Below are positions 4,657 to 12,338 of a stretch of DNA of 64,000 nt, in pieces (positions within the stretch are counted from its first letter, which is position 1; each line of letters opens with the position of its first letter). The translations under genes and the position numbers were made by a program. This DNA comes from Haloarcula vallismortis ATCC 29715 (lineage in GTDB: Archaea; Halobacteriota; Halobacteria; Halobacteriales; Haloarculaceae): assembly GCF_000337775.1 (NCBI RefSeq), contig NZ_AOLQ01000054.1:62001-126000 (forward strand), written 5' to 3'. Below the pieces are notes generated by a model that was not told the origin of the DNA, searched no databases, and saw only the letters and a list, made by a program, of their open reading frames with translations.

Positions 4657-6435
4657 ATGTCTGAGCACACACTGGTGCTGATGGCGCTGCTGCCGCTGGC
4701 GACGATTGCGGTGTTGATGGTCGGGCTGTACCAGCCTGCGACACGGACAATGCCTATCGCGTGGGCGGTGGCGGCTATCGCCGCCTTCGTCGGCTGGCAG
4801 ATGTCGCCCCGGCTCATCGCCGCCGCGTCGATACGCGGCGCGCTGACAGCGACCAGAATCCTCGTCATCGTCTTCGGGGCGATACTCCTGCTATACACGC
4901 TGAAACAGTCCGGCGCGTTCGAGGTCATCAATGCCGGGTTCTCCTCGATTAGCGACGACCGGCGCGTGCAGGTCATCCTGCTCGTGTTCCTCATGGGGTC
5001 GTTCATCGAGGGCGCAGCCGGCTTCGGGACGCCCGCGGCGATTGTCGGTCCGCTGCTGGTCGGCCTGGGCTTCCCGCCGCTGGCCGCTGTGGTCGTCGCG
5101 CTCACGGGGAACATTCTGGCAATCACATTCGGAGCGGTCGGCACGCCGCTGATCATCGGACTCCGTGACGTGGTGTTCGCGGAGGGGACCGGGGCGTCAC
5201 AGCAGGTGCTCCAGCAGGGTGGCTTCGAGAGTGTCGGCGCATACGTCGCCCAGATCGGCGTGTGGGCGGCGGTCATCCACGCCATCGTTGGCATCGCTAT
5301 CCCGTTCATCGGTGTGGCGATGATGACCCGCTTCTTCGGCGAGGAGCGGTCTCTCAAGCCGGCGCTCGAAGTCCTGCCGCTGTGCCTGTTCGCATGGGCC
5401 TCCTTTGCGATTCCGTACGTCGCCACCGCGTACTTCCTCGGCCCGACGTTCCCTGGCCTGCTGGGGGCGATGGTCGGCCTGCTCGTGGTCACGACCACGC
5501 TTCGTGCCGGCTACTTCCTCCCGGACAACGAGTGGGACTTCGGCCCACAGGACCAGTGGCCGGACCACTGGATCGGTAGCATCGAGCCCGGAGAGGGCGT
5601 CGGCACCACGTCGGGCGGGAGCCGAGAGGGGACTGTTGCGGCCGACGGCGGGACGGCGTCGTTCGAGGAATCCCACTCGCAGGATATGTCGCTGGGCATG
5701 GCCTGGCTGCCGTACCTCCTCGTCGCCGCGTTGCTCGTCGTGACTCGCGTTGTTTCTCCGGTTCAGGAGTTCCTGGCGACAAACGGCGTTCTCATGTGGA
5801 ACAACATCCTCGGGACGCCGTTCTCGGAAGGCGTCGAGATGCTCTATCTCCCCGGGAGTCTCTTCGTTCTCGTGGCCGTCATCACCTACGCGCTTCACGG
5901 GATGGACACTGACGGAATCAAAGCTTCGTGGAGCGAGGCGCTTCGAAACATCGCACCGGCCGTCGTCGCGCTGTGGTTCGCTGTCGCTACGGTCATGATC
6001 ATGCAACGGACCGGCAGTGCCGTCGTGCTGGAGACCGCGCCGATCAACTCCGGGATGCTCGGCCTGCTGTCTGAGATCACGGCCGATGGGACCGGCCAGA
6101 TGTTCCCGTTCTTCTCGGGCTTCATTGGTGCGTTCGGTGCGTTCATTGCCGGCTCGAACACGGTCAGCGACATCCTGTTCGGGCTGTTCCAGTTCCAGGC
6201 AGCCCAGCAGATCGGTGCGCCGACCCAGATTATCGTCGCCGCACAGGCGGTCGGTGGCGCAATCGGCAACCTCATCGCGATTCACAACGTCGTGGCCGCC
6301 CTCACAGTGGTCGGCCTCATCGGCGAGGAGGGACGCGTCATCCGTCTCGAACTGATACCGGTGCTGTACTACGGCGTGTTCACGGGCATACTGACGCTCA
6401 TCCTGGCGTACGTCGTGGCACCGGCTGCGTTCTAA
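4657..6435 (+). CDS. lctP: L-lactate permease, LctP family
   Basis: 592 residues, very hydrophobic, about 13-14 membrane segments. The family-defining region FIEGAAGFGTPAAIVGP (about residues 113-129) and the C-terminal PFFSGFIGAFGAFIAGSNTV segment are both present. LctP proteins import lactate (and glycolate) with protons. A hydrophilic loop at about residues 295-345, rich in Gly, Ser and Glu, is longer than in most bacteria and typical of halophilic versions. The ATG at 4657 follows a GGGGTGA ribosome-binding site. The next gene, 25 bases downstream on the same strand, is a lactate/glycolate-type dehydrogenase, so the two probably form a lactate import and oxidation operon controlled from the repeat-rich region upstream. 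Confidence 0.93.
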   Translation: MSEHTLVLMALLPLATIAVLMVGLYQPATRTMPIAWAVAAIAAFVGWQMSPRLIAAASIRGALTATRILVIVFGAILLLYTLKQSGAFEVINAGFSSISDDRRVQVILLVFLMGSFIEGAAGFGTPAAIVGPLLVGLGFPPLAAVVVALTGNILAITFGAVGTPLIIGLRDVVFAEGTGASQQVLQQGGFESVGAYVAQIGVWAAVIHAIVGIAIPFIGVAMMTRFFGEERSLKPALEVLPLCLFAWASFAIPYVATAYFLGPTFPGLLGAMVGLLVVTTTLRAGYFLPDNEWDFGPQDQWPDHWIGSIEPGEGVGTTSGGSREGTVAADGGTASFEESHSQDMSLGMAWLPYLLVAALLVVTRVVSPVQEFLATNGVLMWNNILGTPFSEGVEMLYLPGSLFVLVAVITYALHGMDTDGIKASWSEALRNIAPAVVALWFAVATVMIMQRTGSAVVLETAPINSGMLGLLSEITADGTGQMFPFFSGFIGAFGAFIAGSNTVSDILFGLFQFQAAQQIGAPTQIIVAAQAVGGAIGNLIAIHNVVAALTVVGLIGEEGRVIRLELIPVLYYGVFTGILTLILAYVVAPAAF

Positions 6436-6460: not shown

Positions 6461-9400
6461 ATGGCATACGAATCCCGACCCCCCAAACAACACGACCCGG
6501 CGACAGACCCGAGCGCGAACTACGATTACCAGGGCGACAGCGTCAACCGGCCGGACCTCGTTGCGGCTCTGGAGCGTCGCGTGGACGGCGACGTACGCTT
6601 CGATACGTACACCCGGGAACTGTTCGCGACCGACGCGAGCGCCTACGAACAGCTCCCTATCGGCGTCGTCTCGCCGGTTTCGACCGACGATGTGGTCGCG
6701 GTGATGGAGTACTGCGCCGACGAGGGCATTCCTGTGCTCCCTCGGGGCGGCGGGACAAGTCTCGCCGGGCAGGCAGTCAACGAAGCGGTTGTCCTCGATT
6801 TCAAACGGCACATGGACGAACCGCTGTCGGTCGACCCGGAGGCCGGTCGGGCCCGTGCGCAGGTTGGCATCACCATCGCCCGCCTCAACGACCGCCTCGA
6901 ACCGCATGGCCTGAAGTTCGCGCCGGACCCCGCGTGGGGCGATAAGAGCGTCCTCGGCGGTGCAATCGGAAACAACACGACCGGCGCACATTCGCTGAAA
7001 TACGGCAAGACGGACGCCTACATCGAGGAATGCGAGGTCGTCCTCGCGGACGGGACCCGGACGACCTTCGGCTGGGTCGATGTCGACGCCCTCGAAGCAC
7101 GGGCGGCCGAGGCCGGTCCGGACGCAGACCTCGAAACGCGAATCTACGCCGAAGTCGCCAAGATCCTCGCAGAAGACGCCGAAGAGATCGACGCGAGATA
7201 TCCGGATCTCAAACGCAACGTCTCCGGGTACAATCTGGACGAACTGGTCGACAGCGCCAGGGAGCGCGGCGAGGTAAACCTCGCCCGACTGTTCGCCGGG
7301 AGCGAGGGGACGCTGGCCGTCGTGACTGAAGCGACGGTCTCGCTTGAACCCGTCCCCGAGGCCACGGCCGTAGCCATGCTGACCTACGACAATATCATCT
7401 CGGCGATGGAGGACGTCGCCCCGATTCTCGACCACGACCCCTCGGCCGTCGAGGTGATGGACGACGTGTTGCTTGACCTCGCTGCGGAGACGCCGGAGTT
7501 CGCCGATGTCGTCGGCATGCTTCCCGAGGAGACGGACTCGACACTGCTCGTCGAGTTCTACGCGGATTCGGCCGAGGACGGCGCACAGAAGGTCGCCGAC
7601 CTGCTCGCCGACCGGCTCCCGGACTACGACGCCAGAGAGTCGCCGAGTGACGGGGCGGGTTCGGTCACTGACGCCCCCGTCAACGCCGTCGACGCGCTGG
7701 AGGCCTACGACGCGGACCGGCAGGCAAAGTTCTGGAAGATGCGCAAGGCCGGGCTGCCGATTCTGCTGTCGCGGACCGGCGACGACAAGCACTGGCCGTT
7801 CGTCGAGGACACAGCGGTCCCGGCCGAGAACCTCCCGGAGTACATTGCAGACATCCGGGAGCTGTTCGACGAGCACGACACCTTTGCCTCCTACTATGCT
7901 CACGCCGGCCCCGGCGTCCTGCATATCAGGCCGCTGTTGAACCTGAAATCCGGGGACGGCATCGAGACGATGGAAGCAATTTCCGACGCCATCACAGACC
8001 TCGTCGTCCAGTACGACGGGTCGGTGTCGGGGGAACACGGCGACGGTCGCGCTCGGACCCAGTGGAACCGCAAACTGTACGGCGACGACCTCTGGGAGAC
8101 GTTTCGGGACCTGAAGTCGGCGTTCGACCCGGACTGGCGGCTGAACCCGGGCAACATCTGCGGCGAGCACGACCCGGCCGAAAATCTCCGGTACGACCCG
8201 GACTACGAGTTCGACGCGGGATTCGAGCCCGCGCTCGACTGGGGCAACGAGAACGGGTTCCAGGGGATGGTCGAACTCTGTCACGGCTGTGCGGGCTGTA
8301 CCGGTCATCAGGAAACCACGGGCGGGGTGATGTGTCCCACCTACCGCGCCGCCGAAGAGGAAATCACCAGTACTCGCGGCCGGGCGAATATGCTCCGGTC
8401 TGCGATGGACGGTGACCTCCCCGACGACCCCTTCGAGGAGGGGTTCGTTACCGAAGTGCTGGACCTCTGTATCGGCTGTAAAGGCTGCAAGAAGGACTGT
8501 CCGAGCGGCGTCGACATGGCGAAGCTCAAGGCCGAAGTGGTCCACGAACACCACCAGCGTGAAGGTATCTCGCTGCGGGACAAACTGTTCGCCAATGTCG
8601 AGACGGTGCTCTCGCTCGGGAGCACGTTCGCCCCGGTGTCGAACTGGCTGATGGACCTGCCGGGCTCAGGGTTCCTCATGGAGAAAACGGTCGGCATCAC
8701 GGAGGAGCGGACGCTGCCCGCTTTCCACCGGACCACGTTCCGGGACTGGTGGGCCGACCGCGGCGGGGCGCTGGTCGCGGCGAACAAAGCCGACCGGAAG
8801 GCGCTCCTGCTCGCCGACCCATATACGAACTACAGCCACCCCGATGTCGGGAAAGCGGCTGTAACAGTTCTGGAGGCGGCGGGCGTCCACGTGGTCGTCC
8901 CTGACGCCGTGACTGACAGCGGTCGTCCCGCGTTCTCCAAGAGTATGCTGGACCACGCTCGCGAGACGGCACGGACGAACGTAGACGCGCTCGCACCGCG
9001 AATCCGCGACGGCTGGGACGTTGTCACTATCGAACCCTCGGACGCGGTGATGTACCAAGTCGACTACCGGGACCTGCTGTCGGGTGACGACGTCGAAACC
9101 GTCGCGGCGAACACATACGGTATCTGCGAGTACCTCGATACATACCGGCTGGGGGAGGCGATTCCCTTCAAGGAACCGGGCGACTCGCTGGCGTACCACG
9201 GCCACTGCCACCAGAAGGCGACGAAGAAGGACCACCACGCTGTCGGCATCCTTCGGCGCGCCGGCTACGACGTGGACCCGCTCGATTCTGGCTGTTGTGG
9301 CATGGCCGGGAGTTTCGGCTACGAGGCAGAACACTACTCGATGAGCGAGGGGATCGCGGCGCTCCTCTTGGGACAGATCGACGACTCGCCTGCCGAGCAG

Positions 9401-9505
9401 GTCGTCGCGCCCGGCGCATCCTGTCGGTCTCAGATCGACGACTTCGGCGATGGCAACGAGGAGCCGCCACATCCAATCGAGATGGTCGCGGCAGCAATCA
9501 GGTAG
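6461..9505 (+). CDS. FAD-linked oxidase / Fe-S fusion, D-lactate or glycolate dehydrogenase type
   Basis: A 1014-residue fusion of GlcD-like and GlcF-like halves. Residues about 45-270 are a PCMH-type FAD domain with the PRGGGTSLAGQ motif, followed by the FAD-oxidase C-terminal domain ending with the GEHGDG motif near residue 525. Two ferredoxin-like clusters follow, CHGCAGC...CP at about 607 and CIGCKGCKKDCP at about 669. Two CCG-type domain elements, GHCHQKA near 914 and DSGCCGMAG near 944, close the protein. Such enzymes oxidise D-lactate or 2-hydroxyacids and pass electrons through Fe-S centres to the respiratory chain at the inner membrane face. Position directly after lctP supports lactate as substrate. 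2-Hydroxyglutarate is a possible alternative, since YdiJ-type fusions use it. Confidence 0.9.
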   Translation: MAYESRPPKQHDPATDPSANYDYQGDSVNRPDLVAALERRVDGDVRFDTYTRELFATDASAYEQLPIGVVSPVSTDDVVAVMEYCADEGIPVLPRGGGTSLAGQAVNEAVVLDFKRHMDEPLSVDPEAGRARAQVGITIARLNDRLEPHGLKFAPDPAWGDKSVLGGAIGNNTTGAHSLKYGKTDAYIEECEVVLADGTRTTFGWVDVDALEARAAEAGPDADLETRIYAEVAKILAEDAEEIDARYPDLKRNVSGYNLDELVDSARERGEVNLARLFAGSEGTLAVVTEATVSLEPVPEATAVAMLTYDNIISAMEDVAPILDHDPSAVEVMDDVLLDLAAETPEFADVVGMLPEETDSTLLVEFYADSAEDGAQKVADLLADRLPDYDARESPSDGAGSVTDAPVNAVDALEAYDADRQAKFWKMRKAGLPILLSRTGDDKHWPFVEDTAVPAENLPEYIADIRELFDEHDTFASYYAHAGPGVLHIRPLLNLKSGDGIETMEAISDAITDLVVQYDGSVSGEHGDGRARTQWNRKLYGDDLWETFRDLKSAFDPDWRLNPGNICGEHDPAENLRYDPDYEFDAGFEPALDWGNENGFQGMVELCHGCAGCTGHQETTGGVMCPTYRAAEEEITSTRGRANMLRSAMDGDLPDDPFEEGFVTEVLDLCIGCKGCKKDCPSGVDMAKLKAEVVHEHHQREGISLRDKLFANVETVLSLGSTFAPVSNWLMDLPGSGFLMEKTVGITEERTLPAFHRTTFRDWWADRGGALVAANKADRKALLLADPYTNYSHPDVGKAAVTVLEAAGVHVVVPDAVTDSGRPAFSKSMLDHARETARTNVDALAPRIRDGWDVVTIEPSDAVMYQVDYRDLLSGDDVETVAANTYGICEYLDTYRLGEAIPFKEPGDSLAYHGHCHQKATKKDHHAVGILRRAGYDVDPLDSGCCGMAGSFGYEAEHYSMSEGIAALLLGQIDDSPAEQVVAPGASCRSQIDDFGDGNEEPPHPIEMVAAAIR

Positions 9506-9542: not shown

Positions 9543-9989
9543 TCAGAACCCGATACCGTCCCGCTGTCTGACCGCAACGTCGTATCCGTCCACTGTCGAC
9601 CGAAGCGCCTGTGTGAACGGTTCTGCGTCGAACTGGCCGTGCACTCGAACCGTCGTTGCGGAGGCTGTCTGGGGCTGTGCTGTGACTTTCGGCCGACCGA
9701 CTCGGCCACCGGTGTGGATATCGACACTGTCGAGTGTGTCGTATGACTGTGTTTCGACCTGTTCGGCTGTCTCGATAGCCGCGGGGACGCCCTCCTCGAC
9801 CACCTGTGACGCGAACGCGGCGGCCCGCTGGTCCGGCGATCCGAACAGCAGGTCGACGGGGGTCAGATAGTCGTACTCGACGAAGTAGGCCCGCTCCGTA
9901 CAGAACAACACGTCGACCAGCCGGAGTGGGTACGACCCTCGCATCGTATAATGCAAGTGGACGCGGAGTTCGTCGGTCACGAGAACCAC
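9543..9989 (-). CDS. Conserved haloarchaeal protein of unknown function, third gene of Nramp operon
   Basis: 148 residues, soluble and acidic, no membrane segment and no motif I recognise. The N-terminal 60 residues contain a hydrophobic-aromatic strand pattern (RLVDVLFCTERAYFVEYDYL) followed by an LFGSPDQRAAAFA helix, and the C-terminal part alternates short strands with threonines. Its start overlaps the end of the upstream Nramp-like gene by 13 bases, so the two are almost certainly co-translated, which suggests a role linked to that transporter such as a cytoplasmic accessory or sensor. It ends 37 bases from the convergent dehydrogenase gene. Confidence 0.65.
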   Translation of the reverse strand: MVLVTDELRVHLHYTMRGSYPLRLVDVLFCTERAYFVEYDYLTPVDLLFGSPDQRAAAFASQVVEEGVPAAIETAEQVETQSYDTLDSVDIHTGGRVGRPKVTAQPQTASATTVRVHGQFDAEPFTQALRSTVDGYDVAVRQRDGIGF

Positions 9990-11743
9990 CCTTTCGCAGT
10001 GGCCGCGTCAGCGACCGTTCCGTCTGCCGCAACCTTCGCACGTCCCACCCGATACATCGTATACACCTGGACGAGCAGGAAGACCGCCCAGAGGGCGTAC
10101 CCCCCCGGTGCACTGCCGAGTACGGTCGTCTGGACGGCAAACGCCTGCAACCCCAGCCGTGTCGTCAGCCCAGTCCCGATCAAGAGGACGCTGAAATAGC
10201 CGAAAAACGCGGCGGCGACCCACATCGCGGCGACGCGGCCCCAGCCCGGCATCGTGTGTTCCGGGAGTCGGACTGTGTTGACGAGTTGGACGATGACGAT
10301 GTAGGGCCACATCAGGAGCCCGGACATCGCCGCCCCAACGACCAAGAGTCCGAACGGGTCAGATATCGATATCGGCAGGGTGAGGATGAGCACGCCCCAG
10401 CCACAGAAGACGGTCAGCAGCCCCCAGAACAGTCGCGGCAGGCTCCAGCCCGCTTCCCGCCCGTACAGCTCGTAGATGATGTCGGAGCTGTTCCGGACGA
10501 ACGATTCGATGATCGCGTATTCGGTCGTAAACAGGGCGAGAAACAGCGTGACGTAGATGACGCTCGTCGTGACCCCGCCGACGGACGGCGCAATCTCGAT
10601 GAGCCACATATCTACTGCGTCACTCGTCGTCCCCGGTGCTTGCGACACCGCGATGACGACCAGTATTGTCGTGACTAGCAGGAGGCCCAGCAGGAAGGTC
10701 AAGAGGTGTTCGAGCTGTGTCACGCGCCACCAGCCCCGCCACCGTTTGAGGTTTTGCGTGTCCGGAGTGAACGTGAACCCGTCTTCGTGAACGGTTTCGG
10801 GGTCATCGCCGGCGAAGGGATTCTTGATTCGGCCCTGATACCGGCCCATTCCGTAGCCTTTCTCGCGTATCCAGAGGCTCTGTGAGAGGTTGAGGTACCC
10901 GCCAGCCCCGGCATATGCTAGCGCGCCGACCAGCACGGCGATGGTCCCGACCGGCGAGTAGTCACCGACTTCTGTCAGACTTCCCGGAACGCTAAACAGC
11001 ACGTCCACCGACCCGATGAGAACGAACAGCAGCAGTGCGAATGCGATGGACAGCGCCACCAGAATAAGCTGGAGGCTCTCGACGACGTTGTACATCAGCG
11101 GCGTCACCTGATAGGTAATCCAGATGAACACCATGAGCGCGATGCCGAACAGTCGCCAGCCGACGATGTCGACGCCGGCAACGTCGTACGTGCCGAGTGC
11201 GAGCCCTTCCGCCCCGATTCGCGCGGCGCTTGCGGCCCAGCCCGGCCAGCCCAGACTGACGAACCCGCCCAGTAGCATGGCCAGCGGAAGGACCGGATGG
11301 ACCCGTTCGAATGCCCGAAACACGCTCTCACCGGTCGCGAGTGTCCACCGCTGTATCTCGGTGTTGATGATAAAGTGGAGACTGACAGCCACGAGGAACA
11401 GCCAGTACAGTCCCCACCCGTAGCTGGCGACCAGATGTGGCCAGAACAGCGTCTCACCGCTCCCGAGTGATGCCCCGAGCATGATTGCGCTGGGACCGAC
11501 GACGTGGCGGAGCTTCGGCACTTTCGGCAACGAGAGTTCTCTGAACCGCCCGCCCGTTCCCGTGTCTGGATGAGCATCGCTCTCTGGTGCCACTTCGAGA
11601 TTGTCATACGCGACCGGGGTGTACGACGAGATGGGATACCGCTGCTCTTTACGAGAGGCGTACACCTCCGATGTCTCTGCCTCACCCTCTTGCGCTACGT
11701 CCGACTGTTCCGTCGGCTTTTCCTCTGGCATCGATGAACTCAC
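9977..11743 (-). CDS. Nramp (SLC11)-related transporter lacking canonical metal motifs
   Basis: 588 residues: a hydrophilic, acidic N-terminus of about 90 residues, then about 11-12 membrane segments of the LeuT-like SLC11 family. The first segment reads GASLGSGETLFWP where canonical Mn/Fe transporters have the DPGN metal-binding motif, and the sixth reads AYAGAGGYLNLSQ where they have MPH. The metal-coordinating residues are thus absent, so manganese transport should not be assumed. The GTG at 11743 overlaps the TGA of the regulator gene (GTGA), favouring this start by translational coupling; the ATG at 11731 is the alternative. It is the middle gene of a regulator-transporter-unknown operon. 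Confidence 0.8.
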   Translation of the reverse strand: MSSSMPEEKPTEQSDVAQEGEAETSEVYASRKEQRYPISSYTPVAYDNLEVAPESDAHPDTGTGGRFRELSLPKVPKLRHVVGPSAIMLGASLGSGETLFWPHLVASYGWGLYWLFLVAVSLHFIINTEIQRWTLATGESVFRAFERVHPVLPLAMLLGGFVSLGWPGWAASAARIGAEGLALGTYDVAGVDIVGWRLFGIALMVFIWITYQVTPLMYNVVESLQLILVALSIAFALLLFVLIGSVDVLFSVPGSLTEVGDYSPVGTIAVLVGALAYAGAGGYLNLSQSLWIREKGYGMGRYQGRIKNPFAGDDPETVHEDGFTFTPDTQNLKRWRGWWRVTQLEHLLTFLLGLLLVTTILVVIAVSQAPGTTSDAVDMWLIEIAPSVGGVTTSVIYVTLFLALFTTEYAIIESFVRNSSDIIYELYGREAGWSLPRLFWGLLTVFCGWGVLILTLPISISDPFGLLVVGAAMSGLLMWPYIVIVQLVNTVRLPEHTMPGWGRVAAMWVAAAFFGYFSVLLIGTGLTTRLGLQAFAVQTTVLGSAPGGYALWAVFLLVQVYTMYRVGRAKVAADGTVADAATAKGWFS

Positions 11744-12312
11744 CCACCAACGTAGTGCCAGACGTGCTCGTGGTCGGCAGCCAGGTCAACCTGTGGGAGG
11801 TCTTCTAAGGCGGGCCCGATAGCATCCCACCACTCGTCAGCGGTCTTGTAGCCCGCCGGATGTTCCTGAAACACCTCAGTAATGAGTTCCCCGGCATCGG
11901 TATCGGGATTTTCACGAAGATAATCGTACGCGGCTCTCAACGCCGAACGCCGGTCGTCGAGTACCGCACCTGTCCCCGGCAGGTCCGCATCGGCGATACT
12001 GTGTTCGACTGGTGGCTCTCGGTCCTGTTGCGGTTCCGTGCTCGGGCCGACGAGCTGGGAGAACGGGATCCACCAGACCCGGCTCCGCGCGCCGACCTTT
12101 CGCGTTTCCAGCTTCCCTCGTTCCACGAGTATGTCGAGCTTGTTGTGTGCCGTCTTCCGGGAACAACCGAGTGCGTCCATTACGTCAGTTGCGGTCAACG
12201 GCTTCGCTTGATCCGTCCGATCTTGAAACACCGAGAGCACCCGCTCTGGTGTGAACTCTGCCGTGGACGGTGGTGACCCGTCAGCCCGACCATCGTCCGC
12301 GGTATTGCTCAT
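11740..12312 (-). CDS. Winged-helix transcriptional regulator, first gene of the Nramp-like operon
   Basis: 190 residues. Residues about 15-80 form a winged helix: TPERVLSVF, a recognition region DVMDALGCSRKTAHNKLDIL, and a basic wing RKVGARSRVWW. The C-terminal 90 residues form a second acidic helical domain, probably for dimerisation or ligand sensing. The ATG at 12312 is chosen because an operator-like inverted repeat (12321-12338) lies just upstream, where a leaderless transcript would start; a start at 12321 would put the repeat inside the gene boundary. The 4-base overlap with the transporter gene and the upstream repeat suggest autoregulated control of the transporter. Confidence 0.8.
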   Translation of the reverse strand: MSNTADDGRADGSPPSTAEFTPERVLSVFQDRTDQAKPLTATDVMDALGCSRKTAHNKLDILVERGKLETRKVGARSRVWWIPFSQLVGPSTEPQQDREPPVEHSIADADLPGTGAVLDDRRSALRAAYDYLRENPDTDAGELITEVFQEHPAGYKTADEWWDAIGPALEDLPQVDLAADHEHVWHYVGG

Positions 12313-12320
12313 ACGTAGCA

Positions 12321-12338
12321 ATTACAGTCGTATGTAAT
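12321..12338. promoter_or_regulatory. Operator-like inverted repeat ATTACA-N6-TGTAAT
   Basis: A perfect 6-base inverted repeat with a 6-base spacer (GTCGTA), starting nine bases before the regulator's ATG. Repressor binding here would cover the transcription start. A 14-base part (12328-12341) recurs exactly at 3209-3222, and the same arm-spacer design recurs before lctP. Confidence 0.5.

Follow-up and report, generated by a model that had tools for sequence, protein, structure and literature searches.

Relatives of Nramp that lie outside the SLC11 metal transporters, including one example linked to a carboxylate, have already been published (PMC4072509, PMC9606685, PMC10606218, PMC8806188, PMC8305020, PMC11349517, PMC13274462, PMC10448178, PMC5809530, PMC10998858, and PMC3924224; these reports underlie the comparisons made throughout). 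PxpT/YcsG (MntG), found in 5-oxoproline operons, is an Nramp relative encoded together with genes of carboxylate catabolism, and PxpT is reported to be required for growth on 5-oxoproline. The NRMT magnesium carriers are likewise Nramp relatives outside the transition-metal carriers and are described as keeping the helix 1 Asp (DxxG - TxxA/T). Cellier's orphan Nramp outgroup is reported to be without the SLC11 metal and proton residues. Among the SLC7/APC amino acid carriers, a G-S-G motif in the middle of helix 1 is reported to recognize the carboxylate.

Here, a stretch of 64,000 nucleotides from Haloarcula vallismortis ATCC 29715 (contig NZ_AOLQ01000054.1; referred to as the window) was analyzed, and the gene of a distant Nramp relative, here called the carrier, was studied together with its neighbors (Table 1). 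On the basis of sequence comparisons and gene context, we lean toward the reading that the carrier has the LeuT fold and imports lactate or a related 2-hydroxyacid. The original prediction had described this ORF as an Nramp-like transporter with a clear family fold and with altered metal motifs, linked in an operon to a winged-helix regulator and a soluble protein. The position and strand of the ORF were as claimed, and both operon partners are present and overlap the carrier gene. The ORF starts with GTG, and the alternative ATG located four codons further corresponds to the start annotated in H. hispanica.

Table 1. Features of the window discussed in the text (positions are those of the window)
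Feature	Positions	Strand	Remarks
L-lactate permease (PF02652)	4657..6435	+	Same strand as the dehydrogenase gene; 25 bp separate the two
FAD-binding and Fe-S 2-hydroxyacid (D-lactate type) dehydrogenase	6461..9505	+	Convergent; separated from s5 by 37 bp
Small soluble protein s5, 148 aa	9543..9989	-	13 bp overlap with the carrier gene, downstream
Nramp-related carrier	9977..11743	-	588 aa if started at GTG, 584 aa if started at ATG 11731; lactate/2-hydroxyacid import is proposed
Helix 6 motif AYAGAGGYLNLSQ	10880..10918	-	Residues 276-288; glycine-rich versus A-T-V-M-P-H in MntH
Helix 1 motif GASLGSGETLFWP	11438..11476	-	Residues 90-102; G94-S95-G96-E97 aligned to DPGN of MntH
Winged-helix regulator gene	11740..12321	-	4 bp overlap with the carrier gene, upstream

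Small protein s5 had no match in Pfam, NCBIfam, or PHROG, and its homologues are encoded downstream of other carrier copies. The small partners s5 and s6 were also considered as degenerate LUD proteins, and this was answered in the negative. The window genome is Haloarcula-like, with Haloarcula species as the closest named relatives (91 to 95% identity). In Haloarcula marismortui, H. hispanica (locus tag HAH_RS18625), and H. sinaiiensis, the carrier orthologues are located on large plasmids, where they are annotated as "Nramp family divalent metal transporter." The Haloferax volcanii carrier is, by gene order, presumably HVO_1694, a locus tag of which we are unsure. No mention of HVO_1694, and no published link of the haloarchaeal branch to lactate, was found in the open-licence literature. 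One paper calls HVO_1695 a putative iron-sulfur protein, a description at odds with a regulator at that position.

Helices 1 and 6 read GASLGSGETLFWP and AYAGAGGYLNLSQ, respectively, just as originally predicted. In an alignment of 34 rows, YMDPGNW in helix 1 of haloarchaeal MntH is replaced by SLGSGET in the carrier branch, and ATVMPH in helix 6 is replaced by AYAGAGG; no soft metal ligand was aligned in helix 6 in the joint alignment with MntH. Intact DPGN and MPH motifs were also searched for elsewhere in the sequence. Neither was found anywhere in the window protein or in any of the 61 distinct relatives, so the claim that the carrier is without them withstood this check. SGE is present in helix 1 of 60 of the 61 relatives (the remaining row is truncated) and AGAGG is present in helix 6 of all 61. 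The residues at least 98% identical in 60 rows, a count that excludes the truncated or split copy L118, include S95, G96, E97, N127, E129, R132, E139, A278-G282, N285, Q288, R293, K295, and R305 (locus L050 is a duplicate of L100). In a class-level sample of 292 haloarchaeal genomes, the carrier-branch profile detected members in 48, representing 13 of 77 genera. The bacterial members seen were from Rubrobacter, Aureimonas, and Nonomuraea, and the motif replacement extends to these as well.

Profile searches indicate that the Nramp homology of the carrier is real but distant. NCBIfam model NF037982 matched residues 83 to 492 of the window protein over model positions 1 to 403 of 404 (232 bits) and scored 487 and 548 bits with bacterial members of the carrier branch. 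Pfam PF01566 and the MntH models NF001923 and TIGR01197 gave no match to the window protein at E values up to 1, and PF01566 did not match the tested Rubrobacter and Nonomuraea members either, so that the carrier branch, unlike the orphan Nramp outgroup, is below PF01566 detection. In profile comparisons, the carrier branch matched the haloarchaeal and Rubrobacter proteins with GAGD or GSGE in helix 1 (99.2% probability; E value, 7e-20); the comparison with the GPGT-type relatives gave 77%, and there was no significant match with four haloarchaeal MntH proteins and no match with LctP, the negative control. In a tree of 34 rows, for which the program warned of long branches, the 18 family rows grouped together (support, 100/99), and a second 100/99 branch, subject to the same warning, split the family and the GAGD/GSGE-type relatives from MntH and the others. 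Viral contigs were scanned four times to diversify the rows, and no relatives turned up.

Compared with SLC11/MntH, the carrier thus has distant homology over the whole core, with helices 1 and 6 alignable, but it differs in its metal motifs, in its profile matches, in its position across a well-supported branch, and in its gene context. Membership in SLC11 is, as far as it was tested, not borne out; the tree and the profiles place the carrier with Nramp relatives outside that family. It combines Nramp homology with the absence of the SLC11-specific residues, as do the orphan relatives of the Nramp outgroup. NRMT carriers retain the helix 1 Asp, whereas the carrier has Gly-Ser-Gly-Glu. The statement that the family fold is clear found no support as far as it was tested: AlphaFold2 run on the window protein and 11 relatives (12 rows) reached a pLDDT of 35.8 and a pTM of 0.25, and PDB sequences searched with the window protein and then with a 15-row profile gave no match.

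The gene context of the carrier is not random. A lactate permease gene is located within 5 kb of 38 of the 67 carrier copies (38 of 58 genomes and 9 of 16 genera), compared to a chance expectation of ~0.23 copies calculated for uniform placement and uncorrected for common descent, and within 10 kb of 44 copies. For LUD, the count was at least 29 of the 67 copies. Context was followed further at 48 loci hand-picked for spread, drawn from haloarchaeal copies and plasmid records and including three bacterial copies. At least one of the dehydrogenase, LutB-type, LUD, and permease genes lies within 5 kb at 39 of the 48 loci. Among 15 comparison loci from other Nramp branches, where some stretches reach only ~3 kb to one side, the same is true of 1; this contrast ignores common descent. 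Since the dehydrogenase and LutB-type profiles cross-match via shared Fe-S parts, their counts (36 and 37 of the 48 loci) are interdependent. In the genome sample, the permease co-occurs with the carrier in 42 of 48 carrier genomes and is found in 114 of the 244 others (Fisher P value, 8e-8, kinship ignored). LctP shares with the carrier a gene cluster and the proposed substrate but, by profile comparison, no relationship.

The gene immediately upstream of the carrier encodes a homologue of the winged-helix regulator of the window at 24 of the 48 loci, a dehydrogenase on the same strand at 7, and a permease on the opposite strand at 6. Immediately downstream, 9 of the 48 loci have a LUD (LutC type) gene on the same strand, followed by a LutB-type gene for a 733-aa protein. 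At loci such as L092 to L095, the dehydrogenase and the permease are encoded on one strand and the regulator, the carrier, the LutC-type protein, and the 733-aa LutB-type LUD/Fe-S protein on the other, the last two genes overlapping by 8 bp. These downstream proteins have LUD and Fe-S domains. The 733-aa protein scored 462 bits with the LdhH model (cut-off, 800) and 359 bits with the LutB/LldF model (cut-off, 444.8), below the cut-off in both cases, and the pair resembles LudC and LudB (733 aa) of H. volcanii, in which a ludBC deletion is reported to impair growth on rhamnose, from which lactate is formed. The Rubrobacter member adjoins LutB and Lar_N lactate racemase genes. The 5-oxoprolinase genes pxpABC, which form the operon of PxpT/YcsG, were not among the window neighbors or the recurrent neighbor families of the 48 loci; the operon of the carrier is a different one.

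In many genomes, LctP is encoded in the cluster of the carrier, which could also suit a carrier that works outward, either as an overflow carrier for lactate or pyruvate or as an exchanger paired with LctP. We consider this very improbable. Among the 48 carrier genomes of the 292-genome sample, 6 have no lactate permease, and in all of these a dehydrogenase gene is located immediately upstream of the carrier on the same strand (one is a fragment at the end of the locus). Genome G040 (60% complete), which is from outside the sample, has the carrier and no permease, and its upstream gene on the same strand encodes a 289-aa protein of the D-isomer 2-hydroxyacid dehydrogenase cluster. As a gene for an oxidizing enzyme directly adjoins the carrier in the sampled genomes without LctP, uptake fits better than export.

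Some observations do not favor lactate as the substrate. LctP is already encoded beside many carrier copies, which would make a second lactate carrier partly redundant, and ludBC is on a different contig from the carrier in the window genome. Furthermore, the 5 kb around the carrier are free of lactate genes at 9 of the 48 loci, and a cluster for a branched-chain-amino-acid-type ABC transporter adjoins 8 of the 48. In those eight loci (including L075, L079, L080, L100, L106, and L118), the ABC cluster is divergent from the carrier operon. It is conceivable, although on balance unlikely, that lactate is left to LctP and others and that the carrier takes up some other organic acid belonging to the same catabolic setting (malate, sugar acids, or oxo acids). 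Some loci include genes for a D-isomer 2-hydroxyacid dehydrogenase, a fumarylacetoacetate hydrolase-type protein, an HpcH/HpaI aldolase, or a biotin carboxylase; the Rubrobacter plasmid also has genes for a UxaA-type dehydratase, an acid-sugar kinase, and PdxA; and the Aureimonas copy comes after isocitrate lyase. However, these neighbors differ between loci, whereas the flavin/Fe-S dehydrogenase, the LUD proteins, and the permease recur.

A further alternative, which we regard as improbable, is that the carrier still moves a divalent metal (Mn, Fe, or Mg) through a rebuilt site and supplies the co-encoded Fe-S dehydrogenases with iron or another metal. Those dehydrogenases do hold Fe-S clusters, which makes an iron link thinkable, and the acidic E97 in helix 1 could bind a cation. 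In the published reports, an Acidobacterium protein of the Nramp outgroup behaved as an Mn carrier, and MntH with an NRMT-type site keeps Mn transport. The NCBI name also points to a metal, as it is assigned via NF037982. However, this equivalog model has a cut-off of 50 bits and admits several DPGN-less branches and MntH alike (232 bits for a true haloarchaeal MntH), so the name "divalent metal transporter" carries little weight and is unsafe. The helix 1 Asp, reported as "universally conserved" in SLC11 and as needed in EleNRMT, is Gly in the carrier, in line with the motif and ligand survey described above. While a DtxR/FeoA-type regulator adjoins a canonical MntH locus, no metal regulator directly adjoins the carrier, and no DtxR/FeoA-like regulator was found at the carrier loci except for two weak, short matches ~6 kb away. 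The original suggestion of a substrate other than a divalent metal gains two independent supports: the metal motifs are replaced completely throughout the lineage, and the carrier is repeatedly linked to genes for lactate oxidation and lactate permease. It stands in part, as YcsG, another Nramp relative encoded with genes of carboxylate catabolism, has been reported to import Mn and to raise cellular Mn, which also counts against a lactate importer.

In the reading that we prefer, lactate import, the carrier would be a secondary carrier among the Nramp relatives outside SLC11, and its candidate substrates are lactate or a close short 2-hydroxycarboxylate (glycolate, glycerate, or 2-hydroxybutyrate). 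The imported acid would be oxidized by the adjacent flavin/Fe-S dehydrogenase or by the LudBC (LutBC-type) lactate oxidase. Like other LeuT-fold carriers, the carrier is predicted to have unwound helices 1 and 6. The backbone amides of G94-S95-G96 could hold the carboxylate, like the GSG motif of SLC7 carriers, and E97 together with the glycine-rich A278-G282 may shape a pocket that accommodates the hydroxyacid together with H+ or Na+ as the coupling ion. We infer this putative role of the GSG motif from its resemblance to the SLC7 motif and from the gene context; the likeness to SLC7/APC carriers, seen at the level of the motif, serves as a lead. The winged-helix gene probably regulates the operon.

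Two other Nramp relatives were noticed in the window genome. The first (L119, contig C15; 1549 to 6383) is also without DPGN, has GPGT in helix 1, and matches PF01566 with 347 bits. At all three loci of this type (L119, L124, and L126), the gene is directly upstream of genes for hydantoinase/oxoprolinase A and B in an operon, which suggests a carrier for 5-oxoproline or hydantoin and fits the reported link between PxpT and 5-oxoproline. Gene context separates the known cases, with MntH next to DtxR/FeoA and the GPGT type next to hydantoinase/oxoprolinase. The second relative (L120, contig C38; 5285 to 6703) has GPAT in helix 1, and its neighbors give no obvious clue to function. In Rubrobacter indicoceani (L046; 2563 to 6703), a gene for a UxaA-type sugar acid dehydratase follows that of another Nramp relative, whose helix 1 contains GSGEL; this is a further link to an organic acid. 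At L131 to L134, the helix 1 motif of the Nramp relatives is GSGS or GAGS; a TauE/SafE gene is located beside the relative at L133 and a similar-looking gene beside that at L134.

A broader idea, which we put forward tentatively and with less confidence than lactate import by the carrier itself, is that the whole GSGE/GAGD side of the Nramp superfamily may consist of carboxylate carriers in which the acid is bound by an unwound GSG backbone, in the manner of amino acid carriers, with the haloarchaeal members being dedicated lactate/2-hydroxyacid importers. The SLC11 metal carriers might then have arisen from such organic-anion carriers, with Asp, Asn, Met, and His replacing the glycine-rich site, and the label "divalent metal transporter" would be wrong for many proteins that now have it. 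If the proposed function of the carrier is true, an automatic label in wide use ("Nramp family divalent metal transporter") would be incorrect for the carrier lineage, and the carrier would join PxpT as a second Nramp relative serving carbon metabolism. Haloarchaea would then have a second route of lactate uptake, and they would offer a genetically tractable archaeal system for the switch of the LeuT fold between organic acids and metal ions.
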